Below are positions 2,001 to 3,130 of a stretch of 32,707 nucleotides of DNA, one piece after another; position 1 is the first letter of the stretch; every line of letters starts with the position of its first letter. Location of the stretch: the NCBI GenBank assembly GCA_030446685.1, contig JAUJMV010000001.1:418026-450732 (forward strand), given 5' to 3'. Position numbers and translations under genes: made by a program. Source of the DNA: Thermomicrobiales bacterium (lineage in GTDB: Bacteria > Chloroflexota > Chloroflexia > Thermomicrobiales > CADCWN01). The notes under the pieces were generated by a model. That model was given only the letters and a program-made list of their open reading frames with translations. It did no database searches and was not told the origin of the DNA.

Positions 2001-2037
2001 CAAAAGAAAACGAGGCCGGTCATTGACCGGCCTCGTT
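2001..2037 (-). terminator. Rho-independent terminator of the 15-codon unit
   Basis: AACGAGGCCGGTCA (2009-2022) and its exact complement (2024-2037) form a 14-base perfect stem. On the minus strand the stem is followed directly by TTTTCTTTTG (complement of 2001-2010), a classical U tract. On the plus strand no T tract follows, so the terminator belongs to the minus-strand unit, not to rplY. Confidence 0.85.
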
Positions 2038-2061
2038 CGAGCCTTTTGGACATCGCCAGGG

Positions 2062-2109
2062 CTACTTACCGGTCCCCCCGGCGATGCCCATAAGCTTGTG
2101 ACTACTCAT
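2062..2109 (-). CDS. Predicted 15-residue microprotein, or the ORF of a structured small RNA
   Basis: The minus strand encodes MSSHKLMGIAGGTGK followed by TAG. The ATG at 2109 lies 8 bases after GGAGG in a Shine-Dalgarno complementary to 12 bases of the 16S rRNA 3' end. A promoter is about 70 bases upstream and a strong terminator begins 25 bases after the stop, so the unit is complete and monocistronic. An in-frame ATG at 2115 is too close to the Shine-Dalgarno. The peptide is basic at both ends, with a Gly-rich C-terminus that superficially resembles a P-loop but is far too short to be one. The last eight codons pair with downstream sequence (2048-2057). I do not recognise a family; the product may be a peptide, a dual-function RNA, or a non-coding RNA using its Shine-Dalgarno. 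No function is assigned. Confidence 0.6.
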   Translation of the reverse strand: MSSHKLMGIAGGTGK

Positions 2110-2113
2110 AAGC

Positions 2114-2125
2114 ATCACCTCCTTT
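2114..2125 (-). promoter_or_regulatory. Full-length (12-base) Shine-Dalgarno of the 15-codon ORF
   Basis: The minus strand reads AAAGGAGGTGAT, perfectly complementary to the 16S rRNA 3' tail (ATCACCTCCTTT). Other genes here have 4-6 base sites such as GGAGGGG or GAGG, so this is an outlier. CACCTC upstream in the same transcript (2156-2151) can pair with its GAGGTG, so the site may be masked. Confidence 0.8.
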
Positions 2126-2182
2126 ATCCCTCATCGGTCATTACTGATGCGAGGTGAGGTCGCCCCGCTCTCGACAACGTGA

Positions 2183-2212
2183 AGTGTACCATCCCCCCCG
2201 CTCGCCCGTCAA
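2183..2212 (-). promoter_or_regulatory. Promoter of the 15-codon unit
   Basis: On the minus strand TTGACG (2212-2207, five of six) and TACACT (2188-2183, four of six) are separated by 18 bases. Transcription would start near 2176, giving a leader of about 67 bases and a whole transcript of roughly 175 bases ending at the terminator. Confidence 0.7.
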
Positions 2213-2239: not shown

Positions 2240-2671
2240 TTACGGCCGCGGGATGATCAGTTCCTGGCCCACGCGCAGCACGTCCGGGTTCTCGAGCTTG
2301 TTGGCTTGGACGATCGCCTCGACGGTCACGCCGTAGCGGTTGGCGATCTGGAGGAGCGTGTCGCCCGCCTGCACCACGTACCGCTCACCCTGAAGGCCGG
2401 TCGCCGGCGTGGCCGTCGGACTCGTCCCCGTCCGGGGAGGGGTCGGGGTGGTGACGGCCGGGCCGGTGTTCGTGCGCGTCGGCGTGGCCCTGGTGCCGGT
2501 CCCGCCGGTGCGCGTGACCGTCGCGGCGGCGGGTCCGCCGGGGGTCGGCGCCGCGGTCGCTTCGGCTTCGCCGCTGCCGGGCCGGCTGCACGCGCCGAAG
2601 ACCAGGATGCTCCCGGCGAGGCTGGCGACGATGCCCGCGCGCATCAGGCGTTGTGTGAACTGGGTCTGCAT
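2240..2671 (-). CDS. LysM-domain lipoprotein
   Basis: The 143-residue protein has a lipoprotein signal peptide (about residues 10-28, ending LVFGAC, with Cys28 as the lipidation site). A long Thr/Pro/Gly-rich low-complexity linker follows (residues 30-93). The single C-terminal LysM domain (residues 98-141) has YVVQAGDTLLQIA, NRYGVTVEAIVQAN and VGQELIIP, the usual features of this carbohydrate-binding fold. It is probably anchored in the membrane with the LysM domain touching the wall or a surface glycan. The ATG at 2671 is chosen because AGGAGG lies 9 bases upstream. No catalytic domain is attached, so it is a binding or scaffold protein, or an assembly factor. A promoter candidate lies at 2863-2890. 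Confidence 0.88.
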   Translation of the reverse strand: MQTQFTQRLMRAGIVASLAGSILVFGACSRPGSGEAEATAAPTPGGPAAATVTRTGGTGTRATPTRTNTGPAVTTPTPPRTGTSPTATPATGLQGERYVVQAGDTLLQIANRYGVTVEAIVQANKLENPDVLRVGQELIIPRP

Positions 2672-2862
2672 GCGCCGTGTCCTCCTGCCTTTCCTCCCGC
2701 CCGCTCCACCAGGGCGCCGCGCCTGCCCCGTCGTACGGGGGGCGCGCCGACCGGGGGCGCGAACCGGCTTGCCCCCGTCCGGAATGTCTCTCGATCGCCC
2801 AGTCGGCGGACAGCGCGACGTGCCGCTCCCTCGAAGGTGTACGTTCACCCTGTCCCGCCCGT

Positions 2863-2890
2863 AGTGTAGCAGGTTCGAGCGAAATGTACA
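2863..2890 (-). promoter_or_regulatory. Possible promoter of the LysM lipoprotein gene
   Basis: On the minus strand TGTACA (2890-2885) and TACACT (2868-2863) are 16 bases apart, each with four of six consensus matches. The leader would be about 185 bases. The rest of the 2672-3130 spacer is G-rich and shows no other feature that I can support. Confidence 0.4.
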
Positions 2891-3130
2891 GCCCTCCGGC
2901 GGACCATTATCGCAGATAGTGCCGGGGCTGTGGCGGGCGCGGACGAGGCGAATGCCGGGACGGCCCACCCACCGCCTACAGGCTACAACGCGCGAGGCCG
3001 GGCGGGGGGTGCAGGCCACGAGGGGGGGCGTGCGGGGTTGTTCGAGGGGAAGGGGGGGGAGGATCGGGTGCGGGAACAGGCGGGGGGCGGCCAACCGGCC
3101 GCCCCCCGCAGCGCCGCGCGAATGGGTCGC

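Follow-up and report, generated by a model that had tools for sequence, protein, structure and literature searches.

Introduction

What is a gene that carries every signal for expression but has only fifteen codons to express? Such a unit lies on the minus strand of the window, the whole stretch of 32,707 nt analysed here, which comes from a Thermomicrobiales bacterium (assembly GCA_030446685.1, contig JAUJMV010000001.1, positions 418,026 to 450,732 of the forward strand). The original prediction called it a complete miniature transcription unit and offered three readings of its product: a microprotein, a secreted signal or a dual-function small RNA. The answer that I consider moderately probable, from sequence comparison and folding models, is that the unit represents a small, self-contained gene conserved in Chloroflexota, and that its RNA can, by prediction, adopt either of two hairpins, one masking the Shine-Dalgarno (A:B) and the other setting it free (B:C), a switch that would probably gate the translation of about 15 codons.

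The unit in the window

The unit is composed of the following parts, with positions counted along the window.

2213-2001, minus strand: the whole unit
2183..2212, minus strand: putative sigma-70-type promoter, with -35 TTGACG (2212-2207), an 18-nt spacer and -10 TACACT (2188-2183), matching the consensus at 9/12
near 2176, minus strand: predicted transcription start
2126..2176, minus strand: predicted 5' leader, about 67 nt in all up to the ATG, counted from the presumed start site
2137-2129, minus strand: small hairpin CC-GATGA-GG in the leader, directly 5' of the Shine-Dalgarno
2114..2125 (2125-2114), minus strand: Shine-Dalgarno AAAGGAGGTGAT, its columns mostly invariant or nearly so in alignments A1, A4 and A5
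2108..2119, minus strand: arm A GGTGATGCTTAT, the 3' half of the Shine-Dalgarno and part of the start codon; partner, arm B
2062..2109, minus strand: open reading frame, with ATG (2109-2107), 15 codons MSSHKLMGIAGGTGK and TAG (2064-2062)
2080..2091, minus strand: arm B ATGGGCATCGCC, within the reading frame; can pair with A or with C
2048..2057, minus strand: arm C GGCGATGTCC, directly 3' of the stop; partner, arm B
2001..2038, minus strand: predicted intrinsic terminator, a 14-pair stem with a 3-nt loop (2038-2008), then a T-rich tail

Every element first listed for the unit (promoter, leader, Shine-Dalgarno, ATG, 15 codons, TAG and terminator) is there, far beyond chance. The promoter search returned one site in the unit where shuffles gave 0.0 ± 0.2, and shuffles of the terminator region gave 0.7 ± 0.8 terminator-like sites. 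The pattern AAAGGAGGTGATN{2,8}ATG occurs once in the window, in none of 100 shuffles, and nowhere else in the whole 7.04-Mb genome. The ATG lies 8 nt downstream of GGAGG, and the Shine-Dalgarno AAAGGAGGTGAT is presumably a 12-base complement of the 16S 3' tail in its canonical form. The predicted RNA fold has an energy of -88.2 kcal/mol, compared with -61.3 ± 3.9 in 200 shuffles (z -6.8).

Distribution of the family

How far is this unit conserved? A DNA search found a match in 34 of 61 genomes (here as in all genome counts, the window's own genome is included), one of them, G038, matching by the terminator alone. Alignment A1, with 26 copies, omits L002 (in the same place as L001), L021 (an inverted duplicate at a contig end) and L023 (an incomplete copy), and yielded the model R1. 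Of the 158 genomes in the class R1 matched 138, and of the 93 good ones 89; the match is single in 126 of the 138. The conservation check that the original prediction had proposed thus has a strong outcome, in the DNA search as with R1 and the later models R2 and R3, and conservation in the DNA search and with R1 rules out a chance origin. The gene is nearly universal in the class of Chloroflexus, Roseiflexus, Herpetosiphonaceae and Thermomicrobiales, and it has no match to an Rfam family; its reading frame is too short for the usual protein callers. In Rfam 15 the window had no match at the gathering threshold, and when 27 loci were searched at permissive E-values nothing at the element reached a family threshold. 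Among the open-licence PMC papers covered by the search terms, judged by title or the opening of the abstract, no description of this RNA was found.

Two strong, diverged copies each are present in G131 (L079, L080), G113 (L088, L089) and G122, and other second matches are weak or lie on contig-end fragments. At L021 (G045:C533) two copies stand head to head at a contig end, which is probably an assembly chimera.

Beyond the class, 400 genomes of the phylum were searched with a class-wide model (R2), and 78 matched: 59 from the class and 19 from outside it. R3, built from the earlier training copies plus those 19, matched 139 of the 400, again 59 of the class and now 80 of other classes. I inspected 59 of these 80 matches as sequence, and 58 have a Shine-Dalgarno with a reading frame within the script's limits. 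R3 was trained on the Shine-Dalgarno, start and B:C of 51 copies, so the presence of these features in its matches is partly a product of selection; A:B, the length of the reading frame, promoter and terminator lie outside the model. Judged by sequence, the family extends past the class. Outside the class, most sampled genomes lack a match at the R3 threshold, and copies were likely missed because the models lean on the Chloroflexia form. Searches of more than 40 genomes used stricter filters, by which weak matches are lost. Other phyla were covered by a pattern scan with the Chloroflexia form through about 85,000 species genomes, which returned 66 stretches, all titled as Chloroflexota groups or plain 'bacterium' with the sole exception of one labelled Gracilibacteria that is apparently G081, a genome of the class. 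Since the copies are related, copy counts are not counts of independent events.

The unit also recurs as a unit. Promoter-like sites of at least 9/12 lie upstream of 99 of 143 copies, against 3.5% of shuffles, and in 78 of those 99 the -10 sits 38-57 nt before the Shine-Dalgarno. Terminator-like hairpins follow 133 of the 143 copies, where 10.4 are expected, and 143 of 144 copies have a reading frame of 12-24 codons behind the Shine-Dalgarno (the script's limit was 11-24; L232, with no stop within it, was dropped from the counts on reading frames). The description as a complete miniature transcription unit therefore holds for the family as far as sequence can tell, and with a putative promoter and terminator of its own the gene is built as a dual-function small RNA would be.

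Three arms and two predicted, competing folds

The main feature of the family was absent from the original prediction: by sequence, it is a set of three arms with two mutually exclusive pairings. In every copy arm A (the 3' half of the Shine-Dalgarno and the start region, GGTGATGCCC) is complementary to arm B within the reading frame (GGGCATCACC), and B is also complementary to arm C, the stretch 3' of the stop. Because B is common to both, A:B and B:C exclude each other. A hairpin that masks the Shine-Dalgarno within a small mRNA is thus present as the predicted A:B. In the window copy A:B can be written as 12 contiguous pairs, and arm C (2057-2048) does not overlap the terminator stem (2038-2008).

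The 85 class copies that were compared are a chosen subset of the 138 matching genomes, with L030, L035, L036 and L037, for example, omitted beside close relatives. Alignment A4 holds 76 of the 85; the rest are L117 and L122, which have lost the stop, the near duplicates L098, L103 and L116, L104-L106 with their distant arm C, and L119, in which A:B is weak (-11.0). Across these 76 copies, pairing reaches 96.2% for the 10 pairs of A:B and 91.7% of cells for the 11 pairs of B:C; in slid controls, with the partner moved by 1-3 columns, pairing falls below 50%. B:C is rich in compensatory stem changes (two-sided at 7 of the 11 pairs), the mark of an RNA that had been set beforehand, and A:B has fewer of them (two-sided at 2 pairs, one-sided only at 7). 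Six core A:B pairs are formed in 76 of 76 copies, and two extra pairs that reach into the start codon in only 33 and 59. At the six core positions B shows C<->T or A<->G changes only, A:B being held by G-U wobble, and C often changes to match the altered B. Such transition-only change in B, with compensation in C, is expected if B must serve two partners. The small leader hairpin has its two inner pairs formed in 76 copies (3 by two-sided change) and 74 copies, and its outer pairs in just 42 of 75 and 49 of 76.

In other classes A and B vary together; in L234 and L237, for example, B carries CCTCC, which is able to pair with the core of the Shine-Dalgarno. Compared with 30 mononucleotide shuffles of the partner, all 58 other-class copies have an own A:B and an own B:C whose energies lie below the shuffled mean; the energy is also below the mean for arms swapped between loci in 53 of 58 (A:B) and 55 of 58 (B:C).

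Does the model predict that the switch turns? Fold energies were computed without ribosomes, salt or growth temperature, in one series from 16 nt before the Shine-Dalgarno and in another with a 45-nt leader and a 75-nt trailer. When the RNA ends at B, the site from A to the ATG is less than 35% accessible in 84 of 85 class copies in the first series, and with the 45-nt leader in 80 of 85 class and 53 of 58 other-class copies; at the stop it is still that closed in 81-83 of the 85 class copies. With leader and trailer, forced B:C has a lower energy than forced A:B in 62 of the 85 class copies and 30 of the 58 from other classes; the median difference is -2.5 kcal/mol in the former set and -0.25 kcal/mol in the latter. 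Once C is made, the median accessibility of the site rises from 0.19 to 0.30 with the leader, and 56 of 85 class and 38 of 58 other-class copies remain below 35%; without the leader it rises from 0.11 to 0.37, with 39 of 85 class copies still closed. The window copy is predicted to favour B:C by 4.6 kcal/mol, its accessibility going from 0.06 at the stop to 0.37. Release of the Shine-Dalgarno through arm C alone is thus weakly predicted and partly supported. I considered a B:C clearly stronger than A:B and dropped the idea, the energies with leader and trailer being near balance; in the model the two folds look nearly balanced.

The open reading frame and its peptide

Is the reading frame translated? 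All 76 aligned class copies share invariant ATG columns, and 17, 20 or 23 nt separate the ATG from B, a distance constant modulo 3 in every one of them. Starts were chosen by script (the nearest ATG, or ATG or GTG in the 143-copy set), so that the start counts hold partly by construction. The frame has 14-16 codons in 119 of 143 copies, and it ends in TAG or TAA in 135 and in TGA in 8, compared with TGA at the end of 154 of 431 long stop-to-stop reading frames from the window and class loci. The kept start, frame and length, together with the rarity of TGA, suggest that the sequence is translated.

The stop bias (2064-2062 and its counterparts) favours codons read by release factor 1. In L117, L122 and L232 the usual stop is lost (CAG for TAG, or a shifted frame) and the reading frame is longer, which may be real or an error of draft assembly.

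If there is a peptide, does the gene exist for it? It would be a loosely patterned microprotein of 12-24 residues, polar at its start and basic in the middle and at the end, and the hairpins would only set its amount. Besides the kept start, frame, length and stop, the peptides show recurring residue types, with S or D common at residues 2-4 and R or K at residue 6 in 65 of 143 and at the end in 62 of 143. The tail codons (in-frame pN/pS 0.62, out-of-frame 0.98 and 0.91) and the loop codons (0.65 against 0.80 and 0.81) hint at mild purifying selection on parts of the reading frame, and 17 other-class pairs give 0.69 against 1.10 and 0.70. However, over the whole reading frame the 31 independent class pairs give 0.68, which resembles the out-of-frame 0.70 and 0.83, and the peptides diverge widely between classes. 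The early codons are mostly AGT or GAT, and the loop serines are AGT in 122 of 137 cases, although AGT makes up 12.5% of serines in long reading frames; this excess suggests that the bases, not serine, are kept. The GIT/GVA core of the peptide likewise follows from arm B. Conservation at the amino-acid level, the sign named in advance for a peptide, is accordingly not clear, and in these alignments the amino acids appear under no clear selection beyond the out-of-frame controls. In-frame values below 1 (0.68, 0.69) and the recurring residue types leave scope for a peptide role, but that the gene exists for its peptide I consider unlikely.

Within codons 2-6, 130 of 143 copies have a stop in the -1 frame and 7 have one in the +1 frame, where base shuffles lead one to expect about 42 each. 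Codon-order shuffles still give 116 for the -1 frame, so the choice of codons (AGT/GAT) explains most of this. The -1-frame stops (AGTAGT at 2106-2101 in the window) could also halt ribosomes that slip, or start out of frame, near the strong Shine-Dalgarno. A conserved upstream reading frame ending at the -1-frame stop was rejected as a candidate; by eye, upstream starts and frame are not constant.

Of the three readings first offered, then, a dual-function or regulatory RNA fits best and a microprotein is not clearly backed. The secreted signal finds no support, the peptides being short and mostly polar (median GRAVY -0.18, with 3 of 143 above 1) with a longest hydrophobic run of at most 5 in all 143.

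Might the translation itself be without purpose? The RNA would then be non-coding, its Shine-Dalgarno a decoy for the 16S tail of the 30S subunit, or its arms would bind targets in trans. The strong structure, an arm B that is presumably like the 16S tail, and a 12-base 16S complement that is followed by a start just once in the genome are all in keeping with this. It is nevertheless quite improbable, since nearly all copies retain the start codon, the frame and the stop, and the three loop lengths differ by 3.

Genomic neighbours

Does the RNA serve the gene beside it? In the window the next gene downstream is that of ribosomal protein L25, which is convergent, and the L25 cluster lies downstream in 10 of 61 loci, the window included. 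By Pfam, other downstream genes that face the element encode an ABC ATPase (L092) and a methyltransferase (L095), and co-directional ones an iron-dependent repressor (L069) and Sir2 (L079). Neither the window nor the other loci show a constant co-directional target operon downstream, and since the neighbours are varied and often convergent the element is not the leader of one common operon. A transcription attenuator, with a leader peptide that controls the downstream gene through conditional termination, is disfavoured on these grounds and very improbable: a short reading frame, competing hairpins and a terminator are typical leader parts, and the co-directional genes at L069 and L079 would suit it, but the downstream genes differ, many of them face the element (the L25 cluster, the ABC ATPase and the methyltransferase), and in the window arm C lies outside the terminator stem.

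A type I toxin mRNA with its Shine-Dalgarno masked during transcription is scarcely credible, even though metastable hairpins that mask it are proposed for AapA3 of Helicobacter pylori (PMC6733600), because the peptides here are mostly polar, by the hydropathy and run lengths given above, rather than hydrophobic and membrane-active, and the gene is near-universal in the class and mostly single in a genome.

Directly upstream, a reading frame at 2240-3094 on the minus strand is co-directional with the element, and its cluster (cluster 0) takes this position in 31 of 61 loci; the member in L071 has a LysM domain. The cluster 0 frame sometimes ends about 50 nt ahead of the element model, and read-through into the element is possible. 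Between classes, tblastn with 40 cluster representatives (some probably spurious reading frames) found no synteny match in 19 loci. Proximity to rRNA operons, prompted by the contig ends, was also considered and rejected, with rRNA motifs in 1 of 60 loci (L071) and rRNA also in L097. In these two loci of family f7 the element stands beside rRNA genes (L071 7383-7519, L097 6795-6931), and other f7 contigs end within about 600 bases of it. In L251, from another class, a tmRNA gene (77-441, minus) lies about 580 nt downstream of the element (1024-1120, minus) on the same strand.

A proposed mechanism

To return to a switch between A:B and B:C, I infer that the gene is transcribed from its promoter, that A:B masks the Shine-Dalgarno during synthesis, that copying of C brings release, and that ribosomes caught at the 12-base Shine-Dalgarno translate the frame. 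RNA polymerase would make A and then B, whereupon A:B would form and hide the Shine-Dalgarno; with C copied, B:C could form and free it. As the folds are near balance, a bound ribosome (30S on the 12-base Shine-Dalgarno), rather than C alone, would probably tip the switch. Translating its 15 or so codons, the ribosome would open B:C and come to a halt between B and C; a reading frame so short would hardly have room for more than one. Its departure would let either hairpin re-form. Because a ribosome would open B:C on the way and either hairpin could re-form on its exit, the supply of ribosomes would set the state of the RNA.

With the amino acids little constrained, and the initiation site and the arms constrained, I think that the act of translation is more likely to be selected than the peptide, which would make this a leader-like RNA without a downstream gene. 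How would its state be passed on? At a guess, for example, by arm B, which presumably resembles the 16S tail, pairing with other Shine-Dalgarno sites. A role in translation or its control is plausible. A bolder proposal, possible but doubtful, is a phylum-wide ribosome sensor with a Shine-Dalgarno unique in its genome, in which translation is the signal and the peptide its carrier: the contest between Shine-Dalgarno, anti-Shine-Dalgarno and trailing arm would read the supply of free 30S subunits, and the freed anti-Shine-Dalgarno arm would act on other messages. If true, this would be a leader RNA that lost, or never had, an operon. In any case, the three-arm design with its wobble-limited changes offers a natural test case for translation gated by folding, and simple mutations could separate the possibility that the peptide matters from the possibility that translation does.

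Comparison with known systems

Leader-peptide attenuators of amino-acid operons (trpL, Leu_leader) have a short reading frame, a strong Shine-Dalgarno, a stop between competing arms and a terminator, and the element shares all of these. RF00512 matches overlap it in L033 and L203, far under the RF00512 threshold. Unlike the attenuators, the element has no constant gene downstream, its peptides lack a run of one regulatory amino acid, and in the window arm C and the terminator stem do not overlap. SgrS/SgrT and SR1/SR1P are dual-function small RNAs that also encode a peptide. The element is likewise a free-standing small RNA gene with a short reading frame, but its peptide is shorter and weakly conserved, and the Shine-Dalgarno itself is part of the predicted switch.

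Within the phylum, the Chloroflexi-1 RNA (RF01698) is likewise a candidate RNA, from Chloroflexus, and is tabulated for Chloroflexus aggregans only (PMC2864571). No Rfam family, this one included, reaches its threshold on the element. The AapA3 type I toxin mRNA of Helicobacter pylori, as described, is inert at full length, is activated by 3' trimming and has an antisense RNA (PMC6733600). The Chloroflexota element differs from what is described there in keeping a competing hairpin that lacks the Shine-Dalgarno, in its mostly polar, variable peptide and in its distribution. Like AapA3, it has a small reading frame on a transcript of its own, with anti-Shine-Dalgarno stretches, one of them within the frame, that form masking hairpins expected to arise during transcription. 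The element is an unlisted RNA family that unites known principles in a free-standing gene.
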